Below, in pieces: positions 3,132 through 16,025 of a stretch of DNA of 64,000 nucleotides. Positions within the stretch are counted from its first letter, which is position 1. Each line of letters opens with the position of its first letter. The stretch covers positions 4,601,501-4,665,500 of the forward strand of contig NZ_CP150269.1 of NCBI RefSeq assembly GCF_037976825.1, written 5' to 3'. The stretch comes from Paenibacillus sp. FSL K6-1330. Its GTDB lineage: Bacteria > Bacillota > Bacilli > Paenibacillales > Paenibacillaceae. Both the position numbers and the translations under genes were made by a program. The notes under the pieces were generated by a model. That model worked only from the letters and a program-made list of their open reading frames with translations, was not told where the DNA came from and ran no database searches.

Positions 3132-3688
3132 GAGGTTTCAACCTCCTCTTTACCGCTGACCTTCTTTACCAGCTCCATAAAGATGGATAGCGCCTCTTTA
3201 GCCCGATAATCCAGCACAATCGTGCCTTCTGCCGCTTCGGATTCGTAAATGGTCCGCTGAGAACCGCCAATGGAGATCCATTCCGGACTATTAATTCCGT
3301 GCAAATTGCGTATGGTAGCTTGCATTTGCTGCAGTGAACTCACACCGACCGCCCCTCCCGCCGAGCTTACCGATAACACCGGTTTACCTGAGAAATGCAT
3401 CTGTCCCAAATGATCCAAGGCGTTCTTCAAAACCCCACTCATTCCTCCGTGGTACTCCGGTGTCGTCAATATAATTCCATCCGCTTCCATTAACAGACGC
3501 TGCAGCTCGCGCACGCCAGCATGGCGGTTGAATATCTCGTCTGGTGAATAGAACGGGAGCGGTGTCTCATACAAGTTAAACAGCTTCACCTCCACGAACA
3601 ACGTATTCATTTGCGCTTCCAAGGCTTTAGCCAGAACGGTGCTTGTTGCTTCCTTACGATTGCTGCCAGCTATAATCACAATCTTCAT
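3128..3688 (-). CDS. NADPH-dependent FMN reductase family protein
   Basis: Second flavodoxin-fold FMN reductase, 186 residues. GSNRKEATS (8-16) is the FMN phosphate loop and TPEYHGGMSGVLKNALDHL (76-94) the flavin-binding segment. An in-frame extension of 33 residues upstream is possible, but I start at ATG 3688 because GGGAGG lies 6 bases before it and the protein then begins with the family's usual MKIVIIAGSN. First gene of a two-gene operon with the VOC fusion (ATGA overlap). It resembles azobenzene/NADPH quinone reductases such as B. subtilis YhdA-type proteins, but the substrate is unknown. Confidence 0.87.
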   Translation of the reverse strand: MKIVIIAGSNRKEATSTVLAKALEAQMNTLFVEVKLFNLYETPLPFYSPDEIFNRHAGVRELQRLLMEADGIILTTPEYHGGMSGVLKNALDHLGQMHFSGKPVLSVSSAGGAVGVSSLQQMQATIRNLHGINSPEWISIGGSQRTIYESEAAEGTIVLDYRAKEALSIFMELVKKVSGKEEVETS

Positions 3689-3787
3689 GGTACTGCCTCC
3701 CTTATGGATATCGAATGTTTTGTTAAGTCCATTGTAGAGGAGGCAAGCCATGGAAATCGTCAACATTTGGAGTGATTTTACGAGCAA

Positions 3788-3815
3788 AAGCTCTCATGCC
3801 TTCGGCTGAGAGCTT
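3788..3815 (-). terminator. Terminator of the two-component operon
   Basis: Stem AAGCTCTCA/TGAGAGCTT with an inner GCC-TTC-GGC hairpin; on the minus strand it is followed by TTTTGC. It lies 52 bases downstream of the response regulator stop. Confidence 0.75.
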
Positions 3816-3867
3816 CTACAACTATAGTCTTAGATATGATCGTTATGTACGCCAAATACAGCAATCC

Positions 3868-4533
3868 TTATACGATTCCATGCTTGAGCGCATAAATGGC
3901 CGCCTGTGTCCGGTCGGCAACCCCCAGCTTATCGAGCAGATGGCTGACATGGGTTTTAACCGTCTTCTCGGTGATGTAAAGCGCTTCGCTGATTTCCCTG
4001 TTGTTCATACCCGATGCAATCAGCTGCAGTACCTCCTGCTCCCGGCGGGTAAGTTTATCCAACTGTGCTGCCTGTTCCTGATGGCCGGACCCGCTGGTCT
4101 CATCTGCTCCCGCTGGCGATGTAACATGCGTCATGAGCAGGCCTGCCGCATCCGGATGCAGTTCAACTTGGCCTTCATACACGCGCCTGATCGCAGCCAC
4201 CAGATCCTCAGGCTCAATATCTTTAAGAAGATAGCCGCGTGCGCCTGCCCGAATGGCGGGCAAAACATGGTCATAATCGATAAACGAGGTCAGCACGATG
4301 ACTTTAATGTGAGGCTGTTCTTTTGTTAACCGTGCGGTCGTATCGATTCCATTGAGGATTGGCATATTCAGATCCATTAATACGACATCGGGATTTAGAT
4401 GTTTGGCCGTCTCCAGCGTCTCCTCGCCATTCGCGGCTTCGCCAACCATCTCGATATCCGGCTGCGTAGCCAGAAAAACCTGCAATCCCCGGCGTACCAT
4501 GGCATGATCGTCAGCGATCAACAATCGGATCAT
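3868..4533 (-). CDS. NarL/LuxR-family response regulator
   Basis: DNA-binding response regulator of 221 residues. N-terminal receiver domain with D8-D9 and phospho-acceptor D54 (VVLMDLNMP), K104-type lysine in YLLKDI, then a flexible linker and a C-terminal LuxR helix-turn-helix (about 155-215: LTRREQEVLQLIASG, then EKTVKTHVSHLLDKL). The start codon overlaps the kinase stop by 4 bases, so the pair is co-translated. Its kinase is the GAF protein upstream. The pair is most like the YhcZ/LiaR/NarL group; its targets may include the flavin reductases just downstream, which is inference from position only. Confidence 0.93.
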   Translation of the reverse strand: MIRLLIADDHAMVRRGLQVFLATQPDIEMVGEAANGEETLETAKHLNPDVVLMDLNMPILNGIDTTARLTKEQPHIKVIVLTSFIDYDHVLPAIRAGARGYLLKDIEPEDLVAAIRRVYEGQVELHPDAAGLLMTHVTSPAGADETSGSGHQEQAAQLDKLTRREQEVLQLIASGMNNREISEALYITEKTVKTHVSHLLDKLGVADRTQAAIYALKHGIV

Positions 4534-6230
4534 CCGTTATCCCCCCCCTTCTCTGTTGATCTACCCCTTAAGGGCAGCGAAACCTCAATGATGGTTCCCT
4601 CTCTGTACACACTGTATAGACGGAATTGTCCTCCGAGCGATTCGGCCCGTTCCCGCATGCTCGACAACCCAATTGAATGCCGCGTCAGCTCGTTCAATCG
4701 TTGCTTGGTAATCCCGCGGCCATGATCTTCGATCCGAAGTTCAACTTCATTTTCCTGTAGAGTTAATACGACCGTTACTTCCTTCGTATCCGCATGCTTG
4801 CTTACATTGTTCAGCGCCTCTTGACCGATCCTCCACAAGGCTTCTTCCACGATCCGGGGCAGGTCCTGTATCCCGCTGATATGTGAACTTACATGAAGCT
4901 TCAATCGTTCGCCGTATTGTTTAAGGCCTGTCATAAGCCCTTCCTCAAGTCCGGGTGGGCGAAGCTGCATGATCAGTTCCCGCATTTCCTTAAGGGCGCT
5001 TTGCGATAAAAACTGTATATCATGGATGGTGTCCTGCAGCATGCTTTTCCGCTCATGCGGCTCCGCGGCAAGCATTCCCCCCACCCCCTTGGACATCATG
5101 ACTAACGAGAACAGGGTTTGACTTACCGAGTCGTGCAGGTCTCGGGCTAGACGATTGCGTTCATCCATTCTTGCGAGCTCCCGCCGGTTCTCCTCCAGAC
5201 GGATACGCTGAAGGGTCATGCCGATATGTTCAGCCAGTGCCTCGAGCACCTCCATATCCGCCCGGTACGCATCCCCGTAATGATCGTAGCCTATCAAAAG
5301 CAGTCCAAAAGAGGTATCTTCCGCAGCCGCCAGCGGAACCGCAACCGCTCGGGTGATGGAGGCTATCCATCCCTGTTCAACCAATAAATCCGCAAGCCGC
5401 TGCGCGTCTTCGGCACTGACCGAATCCGCAGAGACCTTTCCATTGCCAGACCGGATTCGTGCGGTTTCAGGAAGTGGAAATTGGGCATGGGGCAGCGTCG
5501 TCTGACCTCCGCTGTATAGGGCACGCAGTGTCATTTCGTTACCGATAGGTTCCAGTAATGCGGCAACATGCCAGTCAAAGTAACGTCCCATTAAACTCAT
5601 GACTTGCTTCGTTAATTCGGCCCGGTTAACCGCCTGGGAAGCATAAGCACCGAGAGCACTGCTATATTCCCCAAGCCGGGCAAACAAATCCGCGCGGCGC
5701 TGCTCAGCTGCGTACAGCCGCATGCGCTCAATGGCGCTGCCGATTTGGTAGGCTACCGATTCCAGCAGTGCCAGTTCCTCTTTGGTGAAATGCAGCTTCC
5801 CGGGCGCAGCCACATTCAGTACGCCGAACCTGCGGCTGCCAGATCGCAGCGGAACGGTTGCATGGTGGGTTATGCCCTCTGTATCCCCCCATTGATACCG
5901 AACGGCGTTATCCAGACGCTTGCAATTCAAAATGTTCACCGCATTTTTCAAGCGTCCGTCATCGTAACGCTCCAGGCACCAGCAGCTGCCGCATCTCATC
6001 GGTTCGTTATCATCCCGGCTCAGGGCAGGCGGCAAATTCCGGCTGGCTACGAATTCATGCGTTCCCCGATCTTCCACCAGGAACAGCCAGCCGGTCGTAA
6101 GTCCCGTTAGCTCCAGCAGCTTGGCAATAACAACGTCCAGCATGGGAGCAAGCTCATTGGACTCGTTCAACGTTTCTGCGATCGTTTTCAGCGTAATTAA
6201 CTCCTGAATATGCGGATCGTGATTGGACAT
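4530..6230 (-). CDS. GAF-domain sensor histidine kinase (NarX/HisKA_3 type)
   Basis: Cytoplasmic sensor kinase of 566 residues without membrane segments. Two GAF-like regions (about 25-170 and 195-340) precede a HisKA_3 dimerisation domain whose phospho-acceptor is H366 in ARDLHDSVSQTLFSL, and an HATPase_c domain (about 455-555; EALNNVSKHA, DHGRGI, GLSSMRERA). The first GAF domain has a cysteine cluster C80-X2-C83-X-C85-X17-C103, a pattern suited to a Fe-S cluster or redox switch and reminiscent of oxygen/redox-sensing kinases such as staphylococcal AirS. A promoter with TTGATG-16-TATAAT lies upstream. It forms an operon with the NarL regulator. The kinase call is firm; the redox role is inference. 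Confidence 0.93.
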   Translation of the reverse strand: MSNHDPHIQELITLKTIAETLNESNELAPMLDVVIAKLLELTGLTTGWLFLVEDRGTHEFVASRNLPPALSRDDNEPMRCGSCWCLERYDDGRLKNAVNILNCKRLDNAVRYQWGDTEGITHHATVPLRSGSRRFGVLNVAAPGKLHFTKEELALLESVAYQIGSAIERMRLYAAEQRRADLFARLGEYSSALGAYASQAVNRAELTKQVMSLMGRYFDWHVAALLEPIGNEMTLRALYSGGQTTLPHAQFPLPETARIRSGNGKVSADSVSAEDAQRLADLLVEQGWIASITRAVAVPLAAAEDTSFGLLLIGYDHYGDAYRADMEVLEALAEHIGMTLQRIRLEENRRELARMDERNRLARDLHDSVSQTLFSLVMMSKGVGGMLAAEPHERKSMLQDTIHDIQFLSQSALKEMRELIMQLRPPGLEEGLMTGLKQYGERLKLHVSSHISGIQDLPRIVEEALWRIGQEALNNVSKHADTKEVTVVLTLQENEVELRIEDHGRGITKQRLNELTRHSIGLSSMRERAESLGGQFRLYSVYREGTIIEVSLPLRGRSTEKGGDNG

Positions 6231-8061: not shown

Positions 8062-9342
8062 TTAATTTAATATGGCGTTCATTTGAAGCCGACTTAATAC
8101 ATTGCCAACATGTGAATATGTTCCATCCCCATTATATCTCCCTTTATGAACGCCTTTTAAAATCGAACTATAATAGATTGGTCCTCCACTATCTCCTGGG
8201 TTTGAACTGTAACTTGCACTTCTTAAACCTGTAAAATTCACACCTTCAATCGTGTAAGAAACAGATTTACTTTTCAGCACTCCACAAGAAACTGGATTGT
8301 TAGATGAAGAAGCGCCTGAAATACAAATCATCTCCCCAACAAATTCATTACTACTATTTTGAACAAGATCAAAATATCCTCCTCTTGAATTATTAGTGTA
8401 CAGATTATTACTATATGTTAATGAAGATATACCAATTGCCGCTGCATCTACATTACCACCGTATATTCTTGCACCCATTGAGCCAACGTTATTTGTCCCT
8501 TGTTTAAAATTATTTCCAGTACTTCCACAATGTGCTGCCGTAATGATATATCCAGAACTTGTACTTGGATATTTGGCCATAAAGCCAAGCGTACAAAGAC
8601 CACCATTAGCATTAGTAATGGAAGTACCGGCTTGAAGAGGATTATATCCCAAACTTCTATTTTGATCTCTAACTAATGAAGATTCTCTTATCAATAACAT
8701 ATCAGAATTAAACTCTTCTTCCAGCACTTTTCTTTTTTCTAAATCTAGATTTTTGACTCCTACTTCTACTTTCTGTTCTGGTAGATTTATCAATGTATCA
8801 GTTATTATCACTCCATTATGCTCTACATTTAATAGCGTTAGTAATCTTTCATTAAGTTTAATCAGTTCTTGCTCAGTATACTTAGTTATGAAAACGTTAA
8901 TTAACGTGGGATCACCATAAATTTGTTTCAAATCAGATTCATACTTTGCTTTATCGTCCTCATTCTTAATTCCAACATTTAAGACTCCACCTAATTTTTG
9001 ATCAATAAATACGATAGTATCATTTTCATAATTATTGGTGTGCAGGTAATTTTTCACCAAAGGCAACTTTTTTAATTGATGTTCAATACGTAACGATAGT
9101 TGCTCTTCCTCAACTCTTGTTAATTTAATACCAAATTTAGAATCATCCGTTTTGTCATTGTTAAACAGAATTATATTATCTTCGCTTAACTGAGTTTTCA
9201 ATCCAAATTCTTCTCTGAATTTCAATTCATTTAAATAGCTATAGTAGGAATCAGTTTCGACTTCGTTTGCAATTACATTACCCGAAGAGAAAATAAGACT
9301 TATTATTACTATGAATGTAAAAGCTAAGTTTTTAATTTTCAT
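8062..9342 (-). CDS. Secreted trypsin-like serine protease with N-terminal prodomain
   Basis: Extracellular S1-type protease, 426 residues. I start at ATG 9342 because AAAGGAG lies 6 bases upstream. A signal peptide (about 1-26) is followed by a 205-residue charged prodomain, then the chymotrypsin-fold domain. Catalytic triad: H271 in ITAAHC, D299 in NVDAAAI, S385 in NPGDSGGP. Cysteines flank the His loop and a CI..SCG loop, as in alpha-lytic-protease/streptogrisin-type enzymes, which also need a prodomain to fold. Base composition is far more AT-rich than most of the window, suggesting horizontal acquisition. Substrate unknown. Confidence 0.9.
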   Translation of the reverse strand: MKIKNLAFTFIVIISLIFSSGNVIANEVETDSYYSYLNELKFREEFGLKTQLSEDNIILFNNDKTDDSKFGIKLTRVEEEQLSLRIEHQLKKLPLVKNYLHTNNYENDTIVFIDQKLGGVLNVGIKNEDDKAKYESDLKQIYGDPTLINVFITKYTEQELIKLNERLLTLLNVEHNGVIITDTLINLPEQKVEVGVKNLDLEKRKVLEEEFNSDMLLIRESSLVRDQNRSLGYNPLQAGTSITNANGGLCTLGFMAKYPSTSSGYIITAAHCGSTGNNFKQGTNNVGSMGARIYGGNVDAAAIGISSLTYSNNLYTNNSRGGYFDLVQNSSNEFVGEMICISGASSSNNPVSCGVLKSKSVSYTIEGVNFTGLRSASYSSNPGDSGGPIYYSSILKGVHKGRYNGDGTYSHVGNVLSRLQMNAILN

Positions 9343-9494
9343 GTTATTCTCCTTTATTTTAGATTTCAAAAATGTGTTTCGTTAGCAACCTTCTATCACT
9401 CTAAGGCAACCAAAAAATCCATACATATCATTTCCTTCCTAATTTTTACACTACACTATTAATGACTACTTAATTCAAGAGAAAGTTAAGGATA

Positions 9495-9730: not shown

Positions 9731-10258
9731 CTATGCCTTCTCCCCCGCGACATCCCAACGATGGCGAAATTTCTCCAATCGCGGATGAAGCTGCGGCGGC
9801 TCGGACAAGAGGATGAGCCTCAGCTTCACAATCCATTCCTCGAATGAAGAAAAAGATGCAAACACATTGGCCATCTCAGGTGTCAGTATAAGAAAATGGG
9901 GACTTCCGTATTTCTCTACCAGATGACGAAGCGCGGTATCAATCGGCGTGTATTTTTTCCGTTTCGACTCGAAGGGTTCAATCACAACCGATGATCCTTC
10001 ATGCTCCTCTATCCATTCCTCAAGCTGTTTCTCCCGCTTGTAATAAGGGCTAACCGGCTCCTTGAACATCCGCCTGGCCGTCTCTTCATGCAGCGGATAC
10101 AGCACCAATTTTACAAATGACCGTTCTTCTAAAATGGCAGCAGCCTGCTCCAAATCCTTCTGGATCTGCTCGAAGAGATCGTAGAATATTAAGGTCCCTT
10201 TGGTTGTCGGCTTCGGGGGCTCGTAACCGTAAGGAACATACTCCAAATTGCGCGGCAT
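9731..10258 (-). CDS. Hypothetical protein, 175 residues
   Basis: Soluble, charged protein that I do not recognise. Visible features: an N-terminal Pro-rich start (YVPYGYEPPKPTTKG), a central helical part (DLFEQIQKDLEQAAAILEE), an acidic/basic KREKQLEEWIEEHEG helix and a hydrophobic strand FLILTPEMANVFASF. The start lies 20 bases after the amidase stop with a good AGGTGAAG ribosome binding site, so it is the second gene of the amidase operon. Codon use matches the core genome. No signal peptide or membrane segment. Confidence 0.7.
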   Translation of the reverse strand: MPRNLEYVPYGYEPPKPTTKGTLIFYDLFEQIQKDLEQAAAILEERSFVKLVLYPLHEETARRMFKEPVSPYYKREKQLEEWIEEHEGSSVVIEPFESKRKKYTPIDTALRHLVEKYGSPHFLILTPEMANVFASFSSFEEWIVKLRLILLSEPPQLHPRLEKFRHRWDVAGEKA

Positions 10259-11775: not shown

Positions 11776-11990
11776 ATATAGTCCCCCTGACTACTTATCT
11801 TTCTGACCTTACGGTAGGTGATGGGGATTAATGTTTCATATTTTAGCCTCCAGTCTGTTTATATCCTTATTTAATTCGGAATTCAGGAGCAAAATTCCTC
11901 TTATTATGCGTAATCCAAGCGGTACCTGTATGTTTCCGTCTTCCCTGATCTCTGCTTGCTATCTCTTTAATCGCCAACGAAACACAAAAC

Positions 11991-12017
11991 GCGGACCAAG
12001 AATAGTTCTTGATCCGC
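11991..12017 (-). terminator. Terminator of the peptide/ABC exporter operon
   Basis: Stem GCGGA-CCAAGAA / TTCTTGA-TCCGC with a 3-nt loop; on the minus strand followed by GTTTTGTGTTT. It lies 40 bases past the ABC transporter stop. Confidence 0.8.
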
Positions 12018-12056
12018 TCCTGTCCCCATTCGAAATCTTCAACTTAAGGTACGATT

Positions 12057-13844
12057 CTACCGATACCATTGAGCCTGCTTGTTGAACATCTCGGCATAGT
12101 GGGCACCCTGCTCAATTAACTCCTCGTGTCTTCCCTCTTCGACGATTCTCCCATCCTTAAGGACAAGAATGCGGTCCGCATGTCTGCAGCTTCCCAATCG
12201 GTGGGATATGAATATGGCAGTTTTGCCATCGGTCATGGACATCAGATTCTCGAAAATGGCGGATTCCGTCAACGGGTCTACTGCTGCTGTCGGCTCGTCC
12301 AGATAAATCACTTCGAAATCCCGATAGAACGCCCGAGCGATCGCTACCTTCTGCCATTGGCCCTGAGACAGTTCACGCCCTCCCGAGAAACGCGTTCCAA
12401 GCTGGGTTGTAACACCATCCTGCAGCGAATCCGCAAGTGAGGTCATCGATGCCTTTTCCATGGCATCGTTCAATTGGTAATGCGCTTGGCGATCATCCGG
12501 ATCAATCTCCCGCAGCGCTATGTTGGCCTCAAGGGTCAATTCATATCGGTAAAAATCTTGAAAGACCGCCGTTACTCTACTGCGAAAGCTCGCAGGATCA
12601 TAATCCTGTATCGGGACGCCGTCATAACGCACGACGCCATGCGTCGGTTCATATAGTCCCAGCATAACTTTTACGAGGGTACTCTTCCCCGCACCGTTCT
12701 CACCGACAATCGCGATCTTCTCTCCGGGCTTGATGCGAATCGTCAAATCCTCAAGAACAGGCTGTTTCTGATTCGGATATCGAAATGTTACGCCTTCCAC
12801 ATCGATTCCTTCCCGTAAAGGCGTGTCCATCGGCAGGGCTTGATCCGTTTGCGGAACCGGCGTATCCAGAAATTCAAACAGTTCGTGGATGAACAAGCCG
12901 TCATGATAGATTTGCCCGATGTTCTGACTGATGTTTTGTATGGAATAACGGGTGTCCTGTACCGCTTGATAGAGCGCGACATAGCTGCCGATGGTTAGTT
13001 TGACGCGGGAGGCGATCCATATGAATACAGCTAAAATACTAAAAGAAAAAATCGTGACGGCCGATTCCACGATCAGGCGATTCTTCATATTTTTCCGTTC
13101 GACGCCCAGCATTTCATACGTATTCTTGAAATAGATGCCCCGCCATTTGTTCAATAAGTAGTCTTTAGCATGAAACAGCCGGATTTCCTTGGCCGCTTCC
13201 TTCGTCTGCAGCAGCTGGTTCATATACGCCGCCATCCTGGATGAAGCGGTCTGCTGATGGATCACCACGAATCGGGAAGTGCCCTCTTTCTTCTGGATGA
13301 TCAGCAGTGGTATGATCAGAAGCAGCATGACAATAGGCAATATGTAATGAAAGCTAAACAATAGAATGAGCAAACCGACCAGCGTAATGACGCTCTGTGC
13401 AATCGAGAACATGTAGAACACCATGTTAATACCGCAGATATTCAGATTGCGCAGAGCCCGCTGCAGCTTGTCATAGCTTTCTGGAGATTCAAAGAATACG
13501 AACGGAAGCTTGCTTAACTTCTCAGATACCTGAAGGTTAAACCAGAAGGAGACATAAGCATTCATCTTTCGCTCGGTATACTTTTGAAGGGAAGCCAGCA
13601 CAATGCCAATCAGCATAGCCATCAGTTGAAGAGCCAGCCAATATAATGCATTGATTGGAGCTTCGCCCCGAGTAAGAACGCCGGTAATGGCGTTTATGAC
13701 TTGAGCTGTAACGTAAATCTGTGCTACAGGTAGAAAAGCTTGGAGTAAATATATCATCGTAGATCTAGTAAACATGCGTGGTGAGACACGGTACACCTGC
13801 TTCATAACCTCAAACATCAGGTTTGCATATTTCATGTTGTACAA
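12057..13844 (-). CDS. ABC transporter, fused permease and ATPase (candidate peptide exporter)
   Basis: Half-type ABC exporter of 595 residues: six-helix membrane domain (about 20-310) followed by the nucleotide-binding domain with Walker A GENGAGKST (near 393), Q-loop VFQDFY, the signature in variant form LSQGQWQ, Walker B VIYLDEPTAA and the switch His in ISHRLG. There is no N-terminal C39 peptidase domain, so it would not cut a double-glycine leader. TTG 13844 is chosen as start because GGAGG lies 7 bases before it. It is the last gene of an operon that begins with a six-cysteine peptide and two redox proteins, which suggests that it exports that peptide; this is inference. A homodimer is expected since no partner gene is present. 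Confidence 0.92.
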   Translation of the reverse strand: MYNMKYANLMFEVMKQVYRVSPRMFTRSTMIYLLQAFLPVAQIYVTAQVINAITGVLTRGEAPINALYWLALQLMAMLIGIVLASLQKYTERKMNAYVSFWFNLQVSEKLSKLPFVFFESPESYDKLQRALRNLNICGINMVFYMFSIAQSVITLVGLLILLFSFHYILPIVMLLLIIPLLIIQKKEGTSRFVVIHQQTASSRMAAYMNQLLQTKEAAKEIRLFHAKDYLLNKWRGIYFKNTYEMLGVERKNMKNRLIVESAVTIFSFSILAVFIWIASRVKLTIGSYVALYQAVQDTRYSIQNISQNIGQIYHDGLFIHELFEFLDTPVPQTDQALPMDTPLREGIDVEGVTFRYPNQKQPVLEDLTIRIKPGEKIAIVGENGAGKSTLVKVMLGLYEPTHGVVRYDGVPIQDYDPASFRSRVTAVFQDFYRYELTLEANIALREIDPDDRQAHYQLNDAMEKASMTSLADSLQDGVTTQLGTRFSGGRELSQGQWQKVAIARAFYRDFEVIYLDEPTAAVDPLTESAIFENLMSMTDGKTAIFISHRLGSCRHADRILVLKDGRIVEEGRHEELIEQGAHYAEMFNKQAQWYR

Positions 13845-13863
13845 CCTTGAGCCTCCTTCGTCA

Positions 13864-14454
13864 TTAAGCCGATTTGTTAAGGGCTGAAGGTTTTGCCTGC
13901 GGCAGCTGCTTGATCATTTGTTCAAAATGATGCAAGTAATTGGTTACGCTTTTGTTAATCACGATCTGCTCCTCAGATAAATAGAACGCCAACGGAAACC
14001 GGTTCACCTTAAACGAATCGATCAAAGCCCGATCAGCCCAGACCACCTGCAAATCCGTTAATCCGTTGGCACTGGCCATTTCAGCAGCCTCCTCGGCATC
14101 CTGGGCGTACAGAAACAACGTAATCGGAAGTTCCGGATGCGATGTCATGAACGTTTTGATGGCCCCGTATGTTTCCTTGCATGCATTGCAATGATTCATC
14201 GTGAACAGGAGGATTTTGGACTTATCGTCATACAGATTAAGGGGGTCCCCGTTCATACTCACATAGGTTGTTCGGGGAATCTGCATGCCGAGCTCTAGTC
14301 CCTCCTTCGGAACGGTCGGTTCCTCATCACCGCTTACGGCTGCCTGCGGCCTCAACTTCAACTCTCGAACATGCCGGTACAGCTTCATAACGAAGAAGGC
14401 CAAACTGAATATCAAGCCATATTGAATCACGAGTACAGTTGTAATCAAATCCAT
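13864..14454 (-). CDS. Membrane-anchored thioredoxin-like protein (MauD/redoxin type)
   Basis: A 196-residue protein with one N-terminal membrane helix (about 5-25) and a redoxin-fold domain outside it. The active-site pair C89-N-A-C92 sits in LFTMNHCNACKETYG; the cis-Pro loop is VNRFPLAFYL. This is the architecture of MauD-like and TlpA-like thiol-disulfide proteins, here expected to act on the outer face of the membrane. It lies between a MauE-like quinone/thiol partner (5 bases upstream) and the ABC exporter (19 bases downstream). In this setting it may form or correct disulfides in the six-cysteine peptide. Family firm, substrate inferred. Confidence 0.88.
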   Translation of the reverse strand: MDLITTVLVIQYGLIFSLAFFVMKLYRHVRELKLRPQAAVSGDEEPTVPKEGLELGMQIPRTTYVSMNGDPLNLYDDKSKILLFTMNHCNACKETYGAIKTFMTSHPELPITLFLYAQDAEEAAEMASANGLTDLQVVWADRALIDSFKVNRFPLAFYLSEEQIVINKSVTNYLHHFEQMIKQLPQAKPSALNKSA

Positions 14455-14459
14455 AGATT

Positions 14460-14987
14460 TTATTCTCCCCTCGCCTGTATGGAATCAAGAGTATAAACAT
14501 TCAATGCGATTAACGAAATAGCGGCAATCCCGACGGAGGACAGCAAGGTGAGAACCGCCTCTTGGACCGGCATACTGAGTGGATTCACGGGTTCTGAAAA
14601 AAGCCAAATTAGCGCATTTAATAAACCTAAGCATGCAACTTTAACAACCGTATTCCTGCCGAGAGTCTCATTAGACCATGAGCCGAAGCAGCTGCATGTT
14701 ATCACCTGTTTCTGCACGATCCTTGCTTGGTAAACAGCGTAGCCGAACCCTGCCAGCAAAATAAAAATCACAATTTGCGCAAGCATCCTGCTCCAGGAAA
14801 ACAATAAACCTACCCCAGCTGCGATCTCAGCGGTGCAAATGAGAACAGCTACAATCGGTAAGTGACCTGCAGGCAGCTGCAGTCGTTCGATTGTCATCCT
14901 GAAATCCGCTAACGACAACAGTTTCGACACTCCCGAAAACACAAAAATCAAGCTCAGATACATTAGGCATAGCGCACTCATGGACAC
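14460..14987 (-). CDS. MauE/DoxX-family redox-associated membrane protein
   Basis: Integral membrane protein of 175 residues with four predicted helices, matching the MauE/DoxX-like family that accompanies MauD/TlpA proteins and passes electrons to or from membrane thiols. Helix 1 ends GVSKLLSLADF; the redox signature is C98-S-C100-F-G, the place where MauE has CGCFG. GTG 14987 is chosen as start since AAGGAG is 8 bases upstream; the ATG at 14981 is too far. The start overlaps the end of a short reading frame on the same strand. It works as a pair with the thioredoxin-like protein encoded next. Confidence 0.85.
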   Translation of the reverse strand: MSMSALCLMYLSLIFVFSGVSKLLSLADFRMTIERLQLPAGHLPIVAVLICTAEIAAGVGLLFSWSRMLAQIVIFILLAGFGYAVYQARIVQKQVITCSCFGSWSNETLGRNTVVKVACLGLLNALIWLFSEPVNPLSMPVQEAVLTLLSSVGIAAISLIALNVYTLDSIQARGE

Positions 14988-15129
14988 CGTTCATTCTCCT
15001 TCCCGACAACCAGGGAGACCAAGCCCCCATCCGATGACATTGATATCTTGCTAACACTGCTCGTTGCTGTTCTTCTTCGCTGTTCACTGTCTCTCTTTCA
15101 TATTGCAATTGCAATGGACCCGTCATCAT
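14978..15129 (-). pseudogene. Possible small frameshifted gene between peptide and MauE-like gene
   Basis: From ATG 15129, with a GAGGT site 7 bases upstream, a frame reads MMTGPLQLQYERETV and continues with SEEEQQ, but then runs out of frame into the MauE gene. The -1 frame picks up a natural-looking tail (ISMSSDGGLVSLVVG, KENERCP) ending TGA at 14978-14980, overlapping the MauE start in the way coupled genes do. A single-base indel near 15065-15080 would join both into a protein of about 50 residues. It may be a disrupted second peptide or an accessory protein. Low certainty. Confidence 0.3.
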
Positions 15130-15185
15130 AATTGATACCTCACTCTTCAACGGTGATAAGAAACCAGAGGACCGGCGCTAAATAT

Positions 15186-15214
15186 AAACAGCGGAACAAG
15201 GAGTTCCGCTGTTT
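15186..15214 (-). terminator. Internal terminator after the six-cysteine peptide gene
   Basis: Perfect 12-bp stem (AAACAGCGGAAC/GTTCCGCTGTTT) with a 5-nt loop, 22 bases after the peptide stop, followed on the minus strand by ATATTTAG. The tail is weak, so partial read-through into the redox and transporter genes is likely, giving more peptide transcript than transporter transcript. Confidence 0.75.
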
Positions 15215-15236
15215 ATGCATGCGCTTTCATAAAATG

Positions 15237-15362
15237 TTAGCAACCGCAAGTATATCTCTCTTCGGAACCATTGCCGCAGTCCCATACCTCAAGACGAACG
15301 CCAAATTTATCACGTCCGCATTGCTCCGTTGTGTTACAGGAAGTATGACGAAGAATACACAT
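15237..15362 (-). CDS. Six-cysteine 41-residue peptide, candidate bacteriocin-like precursor
   Basis: A short gene with an exceptional ribosome binding site (AAAGGAGGTGAAC, ending 4 bases before ATG). The 41-residue product begins MCILRHTSCNTTEQCG and has cysteines at 2, 9, 15, 29, 39 and 41, ending C-G-C. There is no hydrophobic signal peptide and no double-glycine leader. It heads an operon with a MauE-like membrane protein, a thioredoxin-like protein and an ABC exporter, with a terminator directly after it. I infer a secreted, disulfide-stabilised peptide, perhaps a leaderless or defensin-like bacteriocin or a signal peptide. A metal-binding or redox-carrier peptide is the main alternative. 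Not matched to a named family from memory. Confidence 0.7.
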   Translation of the reverse strand: MCILRHTSCNTTEQCGRDKFGVRLEVWDCGNGSEERYTCGC

Positions 15363-15552
15363 AAATGTTCACCTCCTTTCAAGTCATGAAATTCATCCAT
15401 ATATATGAAAGGTGTTGCCGTGCTGAAGGATCGAGGTGTATTAAACGCTGGATGTAGGAGCTTTCATTTCATAAGCCGAAAACACTGTAAGCGGGTTCAA
15501 TTCAGAAGTAGCGTAAGAGGAGCTTGTCCTAACTAACTAGCTTTCAAGATAC

Positions 15553-15584
15553 TACAAATATACTATATTTGTAATTTATTACAA
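15553..15584. promoter_or_regulatory. Two overlapping palindromes between divergent genes
   Basis: Arms TACAAATATA and TATATTTGTA around a single C (15553-15573, perfect), overlapping TTGTAAT-TT-ATTACAA (15569-15584). They lie between the six-cysteine peptide operon (minus) and the 126-residue gene (plus), over the -35 region of the latter, as an operator would. Confidence 0.55.
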
Positions 15585-15606
15585 GGATAATATCTTACAG
15601 TAAAAT
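15579..15606 (+). promoter_or_regulatory. Candidate promoter of the DUF4183-like gene
   Basis: TTACAA (15579-15584), 16 bases, TAAAAT (15601-15606), ending about 40 bases before the start codon. The -35 is embedded in a palindrome. Confidence 0.45.
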
Positions 15607-15644
15607 AATAGAATATTATCCCTGAATAGAAAGAGGAGTCGACC

Positions 15645-16025
15645 GTGCAAATCCAGATCCGATTATCCAACCATCATCCGAAAGGCATCCAAGGATTACC
15701 CGGTAGCGTGATTGTGCCGGAGATCATTGTAATACCGACCACGCTTCGTAATTTTTACGTTTTGATGTCCGAAGTTAATCTGGATGTTCCCTTTGTCATA
15801 CCTGTCCAGCAATTTACGGATGATGACGGAAACCATACATTTCAGAGCATTGAGGTCGGTCCGAACACCACATCAACGTTTTATATCAATGGCATGATTC
15901 AGGAAGGCCGAATATACACCCTCACGCCGGGATCACTAACCTTGTATTCTCCCGGCGATGTACTCCTGGCCGGCACGCCGATCTTGCTGGAGGTTTTATA
16001 CCTCACCGTTCAGGTGGTGGCTTAA
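15645..16025 (+). CDS. DUF4183-like protein
   Basis: A 126-residue beta-rich protein. The second half, with TFYINGMIQEGRIYTLTPG, then LTLYSPGDVLLAGTPILLEVL, follows the pattern of DUF4183, a domain found in Bacillus and Paenibacillus surface, exosporium and collagen-like proteins (a strand pair, F-V-N-G-x-x-Q, then G-x-L-x-L and G-T-P-I-I-L). There is no signal peptide. AAGAGGAG lies 8 bases before the start (GTG at 15645). It stands alone between two divergent or opposing operons and is closed by a terminator. A structural role on spores or the cell surface is plausible but not shown. Confidence 0.7.
   Translation: MQIQIRLSNHHPKGIQGLPGSVIVPEIIVIPTTLRNFYVLMSEVNLDVPFVIPVQQFTDDDGNHTFQSIEVGPNTTSTFYINGMIQEGRIYTLTPGSLTLYSPGDVLLAGTPILLEVLYLTVQVVA

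Follow-up and report, generated by a model that had tools for sequence, protein, structure and literature searches.

What is made by a locus in which a gene for a 41-residue, six-cysteine peptide is followed by genes for a MauE/DoxX-type membrane protein, an anchored thioredoxin-like protein (TRX) and an ATP-binding cassette (ABC) exporter? This question is raised by a 64,000-nucleotide stretch of Paenibacillus sp. FSL K6-1330 (contig NZ_CP150269.1, positions 4,601,501 to 4,665,500; hereafter the window), for which a sequence-only reading had proposed a secreted, disulfide-stabilised peptide served by an oxidative folding pair and an exporter. Our answer, to which we assign a probability of about 0.72, is that the four genes make an exported, disulfide-stapled leaderless peptide, most likely a laterosporulin-like bacteriocin of a separate family. 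The peptide would be translated without a leader from its own strong ribosome binding site, both the site and its conservation being seen in the sequence; the anchored CxxC protein, TRX, would insert three disulfides, MauE would pass the electrons to the membrane quinone pool and the peptidase-free exporter would send the peptide out uncut. With less certainty, the peptide would be folded before export, the sequence charges suggesting that both redox centres are turned towards the cytoplasm. We assign the oxidation role to TRX and MauE because of their CxxC and CxC motifs, the even cysteine counts across the whole group of peptides and the precedent of methylamine utilisation (mau).

The peptide of the window starts with Met-Cys and has its cysteines at positions 2, 9, 15, 29, 39 and 41; its 41-codon gene is, as had been read from the sequence, preceded by a ribosome binding site, AAAGGAGGTGA, which 6 bases separate from the ATG. 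The product is slightly acidic, and its calculated average mass without the methionine is 4528.0 when reduced and 4522.0 with three disulfides. TRX is present in 4 of 100 genomes of the genus, the window's own counted, and the other three (G104, G078 and G075) keep the peptide at the same place in the same gene order, a conservation on which the sequence-only reading had made its proposal depend. Peptide identity is 100% in G104 and G078 and 93% in G075, the corresponding values for MauE being 93, 77 and 67%. Compared with G078, the peptide codons carry nine synonymous and no nonsynonymous changes (nonsynonymous rate dN 0, synonymous rate dS 0.47); compared with G075, they carry eight and three, respectively. 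At the level of sequence, the peptide is conserved beyond its machinery in these three genomes, and because dN is 0 against a dS of 0.47 in G078, and given the counts in control DNA and random loci reported below, a chance or untranslated reading frame is very unlikely. The same gene set occurs in Paenibacillus sp. EZ-K15 (MauE 92.6%, TRX and ABC exporter 98% identical), and a protein database of 5.8 billion sequences yielded two further peptides, 93% and 73% identical. Nine peptides combined into a profile brought up nothing new, since P0009, P0010 and probably P0011 are copies of the query members L131, L146 and L148, and the peptide alone, when searched against 60 relatives, matched 17 genomes at E ≤ 1, with the window's own copy as the only significant match (5.1e-26; next 0.056). 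A full-length match in L006 (E 0.14) was set aside, there being no gene of the MauE-TRX-ABC set around it, and the sequence matches in the PDB, brief segments within carbohydrate-binding repeats and various other proteins, were taken as chance. AlphaFold predicts a three-stranded peptide (predicted local distance difference test score, pLDDT, 86.9).

The three partner proteins proved to be what the sequence-only reading had taken them for. MauE, with its C98-S-C100 motif, scores 73.4 bits with the Pfam family MauE (PF07291; cut-off 27). TRX bears a CNAC motif behind an N-terminal hydrophobic segment; its family matches are weak, and it is not recognised as MauD (TIGR02661; 24 bits, cut-off 188.6). 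Two exporter profiles that include a peptidase, TIGR01193 and TIGR03796, match the ABC exporter only from profile positions 205 and 196, from which we conclude that the C39 domain is missing; no peptidase appeared in the Pfam scan. Beside the precursor gene and among the four scanned neighbours named below, we found no lanthipeptide, sactipeptide or linear azole-containing peptide (LAP)-type modification enzyme, the gene set consisting of MauE, TRX and ABC only. The window MauE had no relative in viral contigs and plasmids, and its structure model, built from two sequences, was too poor for use (pLDDT 42.5).

Is this grouping found elsewhere? A MauE model matched 17 of 398 genomes drawn from the phylum, 44 of 299 from the class, 71 of 296 from the order and 14 of 80 from one family of the class, which we infer to be Bacillus-like; these draws overlap. 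We examined 144 loci, the window included, with order-survey matches weaker than about 1e-8 mostly, and class-survey ones partly, left out. A cassette was defined as MauE, TRX and an ABC protein of 560-700 aa within 5 kb, and a cysteine-rich open reading frame (ORF) as one of 28-110 codons with at least four cysteines, at least 8% cysteine, a cysteine in the last three residues and a ribosome binding site of at least 6 bases. Cassettes are present at 89 of the 144 loci. Under these fixed criteria, a cysteine-rich ORF accompanies 64 of the 89 cassettes versus 4 of the 55 other MauE loci. These loci do not count as independent cases: L026 and the window come from a single species, and several more nearly duplicate one another. 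A few of the ORFs, for instance a 39-mer rich in arginine at L220, seem spurious. Three of the four non-cassette loci with such an ORF (L178, L229 and L255) appear to be cassettes that are incomplete or broken. The gene set is widespread. Control DNA, 108 kb made up of the remainder of the window and 17 loci, contained no cysteine-rich ORF, and random loci of like composition contained one in 10 of 445 cases in a first run and in 604 of 38,181 in a longer one. A looser pattern adds ten Bacillus-like loci, L136 and L149, bringing the total to 76 of 89 cassettes. Nearly all of the ORFs (71/73) share the strand of the nearest cassette gene, CxC is found in 88 of the 89 cassette MauE proteins, and CxxC in all 150 TRX of cassette loci, a motif towards which the TRX profile is itself biased. 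The Exiguobacterium plasmids pE73 and pEYLC1.1 also carry cassettes that include genes for cysteine-rich peptides; since both plasmids are typed mobilizable, the system may travel.

Of 68 distinct peptides, 66 have 4, 6, 8 or 10 cysteines, one has five and one seven, and after single-linkage grouping at 40% identity, which merges 42 of the 68 into one group, the number is even in 22 of 24 groups (P = 1.8e-5 against one half). With at least five cysteines, the number is even in 63 of 65 peptides versus 85 of 276 random-DNA matches. These even counts point to peptides with all cysteines paired. The first cysteine lies at residue 2-5 in 41 of the 68 peptides, which leaves these no space for a leader; in the remaining ones as many as 28 residues precede it. 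Several cassettes (L231, L236, L155, L168, L137 and L140) hold two or three peptide copies, diverged or identical, and by analogy resemble diversifying bacteriocin clusters. Eleven loci (L051, at 8193-8405, L110-L116 and L118-L120) encode a Bacillus-like six-cysteine peptide with the N-terminus MLDRFLNKM, similar spacing and the end CGC, near MauE, two TRX and ABC genes. Four others (L152, L154, L158 and L251) have two MauE genes each and form their own group in the MauE tree (support 93); the longer peptides of L152, L158 and L251 share an I-x-G-x-C-G-(W/F)-G stretch and are perhaps a separate precursor class.

A product of known activity enters the picture through the cassette of L135, whose peptide belongs to the laterosporulin family of bacteriocins (52.5 bits; cut-off 40) and had no match on plasmids. 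When searched for, this family turned up in 1 of 296 genomes of the order, namely that of L135, and in 3 of 39 from another family. All four laterosporulin genes sit in cassettes ordered peptide-TRX-ABC-TRX-MauE. The L237 peptide can be aligned to the 49 residues of PDB entry 4OZK, its letters 3-50 being equal to those of the entry, and on the strength of this identity we take these genomes to be Brevibacillus. The sequence-only reading had found the gene order to differ from the systems it knew; these four loci correct that view, in that the arrangement resembles the one around laterosporulin. The original report describes the laterosporulin region as 4 kb in which a regulator is found with a hypothetical protein, a 'dehydrogenase' and an ABC transporter that lacks a protease domain (PMC3293901), and a later one states that attempts to express the cluster in other hosts were unsuccessful (PMC6510442). 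We infer that the 'hypothetical' and 'dehydrogenase' genes encode TRX and either TRX or MauE. The window likewise has a leaderless six-cysteine peptide beside TRX, a peptidase-free ABC exporter and MauE. Its peptide does not match the laterosporulin family (NF033806 and PF17861) at E ≤ 1 and thus stands outside that sequence family, but is laterosporulin-like in its machinery. It is this shared machinery which makes a bacteriocin of the laterosporulin kind, by analogy, the most likely product.

On which side of the membrane would the disulfides form? We approached topology with simple hydropathy and a count of lysine and arginine (K/R) residues under the positive-inside rule. A membrane segment precedes CxxC in 89 of 150 cassette TRX and is absent in 61; both TRX of the laterosporulin loci L135 and L237 have none. 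Among the 89 anchored proteins, the K/R excess lies after the anchor in 73, before it in 10, and 6 are ties. MauE could be scored in 84 of 89 cassettes, and K/R is higher on the CxC side in 83 of these (mean 10.7 vs 2.8, all scored). A ResA-type control, in which 30 of 80 matches were scored (25 genomes), showed the opposite: of 29 anchored proteins, 21 have more K/R before the anchor, none after it and 8 are ties. Outside cassettes, 32 of 48 scored MauE proteins are oriented as in cassettes, 15 oppositely, and one is a tie. Given the K/R excess on their side, the MauE CxC and the TRX CxxC are suggested to face the cytoplasm, and the bonds may therefore form before export. The set of peptide, oxidative folding pair and exporter proposed by the sequence-only reading is conserved and generalises; TRX is anchored, as that reading had it, but its charges would put CxxC in the cytoplasm and so speak against oxidative folding outside the cell. 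A substantial minority possibility, in our view, is that the reduced peptide is exported first and then oxidised outside by the redox pair, as in the Dsb/Bdb system. Known bacterial disulfide oxidases act outside the cytoplasm, an unfolded chain would be easier to export, and the producer would be spared if the peptide gained its activity only on oxidation. While the bulk of the charge counts, the ResA-type control and the TRX without a membrane segment all argue against this order of events, the 10 anchored TRX with the reverse pattern are in its favour. In its favour, too, true mau proteins (Paracoccus and Indioceanicola) show the cassette-like charge pattern in 2 of 2 records each, although MauD and MauE are taken to act outside, serving a periplasmic enzyme. 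This case either weakens the cytoplasmic reading or extends it; it may extend it because in both records MauA starts with an SRR signal of the twin-arginine translocation (Tat) type (L294, 3000-3566; L295, 3096-3635), and the Tat route carries folded proteins, which in turn speaks against oxidation outside.

The nature of the product leaves room for two further explanations. We think it rather unlikely that the same machinery makes a signal, sporulation or host-association peptide instead of a bacteriocin, even though bacteriocins tend to diversify and the peptide of the window has changed far less than the proteins that serve it, no immunity gene was seen and the peptide is slightly acidic. 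Against this, the cargo varies strongly by locus, with some tandem copies, and cassettes occur on two plasmids typed mobilizable, as is the case for bacteriocins, and laterosporulin, the sole characterised cargo that we found for this machinery, is described in the accessible part of its report as antibacterial (PMC3293901). A metallothionein-like metal- or redox-buffering peptide, whose thiols MauE and TRX would keep reduced, would also be small, cysteine-rich and adjacent to redox proteins. We regard it as very improbable, as an exporter would then serve no purpose, a three-stranded sheet is predicted, and laterosporulin, from the same type of cassette, has solved structures in the PDB and three disulfides according to the accessible text of PMC6510442.

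Turning to the layout of the locus (Table 1), the order on the minus strand is peptide (15362-15237), hairpin, MauE, TRX, ABC exporter and terminator-like hairpin (12017-11991), with gaps of 5 bases between MauE and TRX and 19 between TRX and the exporter. We take the four genes to be one operon because of their spacing and common strand, and of nothing else. A terminator consensus scan found fewer sites than in its shuffles, and the hairpin at 11991-12017 is hence a mere consensus match; Rfam had no match at E ≤ 1 in 11900-15800. The sequence-only reading had placed a strong terminator behind the peptide gene. The hairpin (15184-15216) is there, 3' of the stop codon and with its stem identical in all four genomes, and a folding energy of -29.1 kcal/mol (z = -5.0) was computed for the 81-base stretch, but a strong terminator is only plausible, as the hairpin has no clean U-tract and was not listed by the consensus scan. 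An ORF of 97-100 codons between this hairpin and MauE, overlapping the latter (14827-15150, minus strand), stays open in all four genomes, between which its indels keep the frame; across six pairs, the 27-codon core differs by 0-6 synonymous versus 2-9 nonsynonymous changes, the synonymous ones exceeding the nonsynonymous by one in a single pair, and we did not accept it as a gene, its codons being without clear constraint. A conserved MGAWSPWLSGRRMN stretch overlies the MauE ribosome binding site. The four neighbours scanned, in a scan that left out a 175-aa ORF (9731-10258), are an amidase, a DUF4183 protein, RbsD/FucU and a weakly trypsin-like protein. The DUF4183 gene has two matches each in L019, L024 and L026 and none in L025; the trypsin-like protein (8062-9369, minus strand) matches weakly, under the Pfam cut-off, and shows no sign of membership in the operon.

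Table 1. Features of the window locus and of the plasmid cassettes.
Feature	Coordinates	Strand	Basis
Six-cysteine peptide gene, 41 aa, leaderless	15237..15362	minus	sequence, codon conservation
Ribosome binding site AAAGGAGGTGA	15369..15379	minus	identical bases in three other genomes
Hairpin, 14-bp stem, peptide-MauE interval; likely terminator or mRNA-stabilising 3' end	15184..15216	minus	conserved
MauE/DoxX-type membrane protein, 175 aa, CxC at 98-100, five hydrophobic segments	14460..14987	minus	
TRX, 196 aa, CNAC, N-terminal membrane anchor, then five K/R within 15 residues	13864..14454	minus	
ABC exporter, membrane and ATPase parts in one chain, without peptidase domain; start TTG, or ATG at 13835	12057..13844	minus	
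Terminator-like hairpin, T-rich tail, 3' of exporter gene; probable operon end	11991..12017	minus	consensus match only
Divergent DUF4183 gene adjoining peptide gene	15645-16025	plus	
Plasmid cassettes	L293: 2207 and 1934 (low ends), 3215-5983; L296: 2197 and 7989, 3159-6001	minus for 2207, 1934, 2197 and 7989	

For laterosporulin bacteriocins, these results provide a likely complete biosynthetic set and suggest roles for the neighbours annotated as 'hypothetical' and 'dehydrogenase'. Moreover, searching for MauE together with a CxxC protein and an exporter without peptidase uncovers, in many Bacilli, genes for small disulfide-rich peptides that are easily missed by annotation. We also put forward, tentatively and at somewhat less than even odds, a wider proposal, namely that MauE and its CxxC partner are a cytoplasm-facing, inside-out Dsb, which in Bacilli would staple hypervariable, mostly leaderless peptides inside the cell and hand them folded to an ABC exporter, and in methylotrophs would oxidise MauA before Tat export; laterosporulin would then represent one among about twenty peptide families, most of them undescribed. 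Whether bacteria possess a dedicated oxidase for disulfide formation at the cytoplasmic face of the membrane becomes testable.

In the open-access PMC literature we found no link between MauE and laterosporulin, one joint match being the author name Mauerer, and, with the exception of a remark on mauE in the decRiPPter study, the wider cassette class was not found described as such. A membrane thiol oxidase turned to form disulfides in the cytoplasm is reportedly present in Aeropyrum pernix, as an inward-facing VKOR; that system is archaeal, has VKOR instead of MauE and is said to have no dedicated peptide cargo. The mauE/mauD genes of methylamine utilisation share with the window the MauE CxC, a CxxC partner, the charge pattern and an adjoining cysteine-rich exported substrate, but this substrate is MauA with its Tat-type signal rather than a peptide with an ABC exporter, and the window TRX, at 24 bits, stays far below the MauD cut-off of 188.6. 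In Streptomyces, decRiPPter found mauE (in three families, one of which has mauD as well) next to predicted precursors carrying eight or more cysteines, and its authors suggest that the mauE products modify these precursors (PMC7794033). This is partial prior art, although the accessible sections of that paper mention neither laterosporulin nor leaderless peptides, an exporter set or topology. Actifensin from Actinomyces is a six-cysteine, defensin-like bacteriocin with ABC genes nearby; according to the accessible text it has a 32-residue leader and another operon, and no MauE is named there (PMC6989792). Among the closest systems are also the laterosporulin and laterosporulin10 operons of Brevibacillus (class IId, NF033806/PF17861), which combine a short leaderless six-cysteine peptide, a peptidase-free ABC exporter, a CxxC protein and MauE. 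Compared with these, the window has one TRX instead of two and the order peptide-MauE-TRX-ABC instead of peptide-TRX-ABC-TRX-MauE, and its MauE falls in another well-supported group of a FastTree phylogeny whose deep branches are weak.

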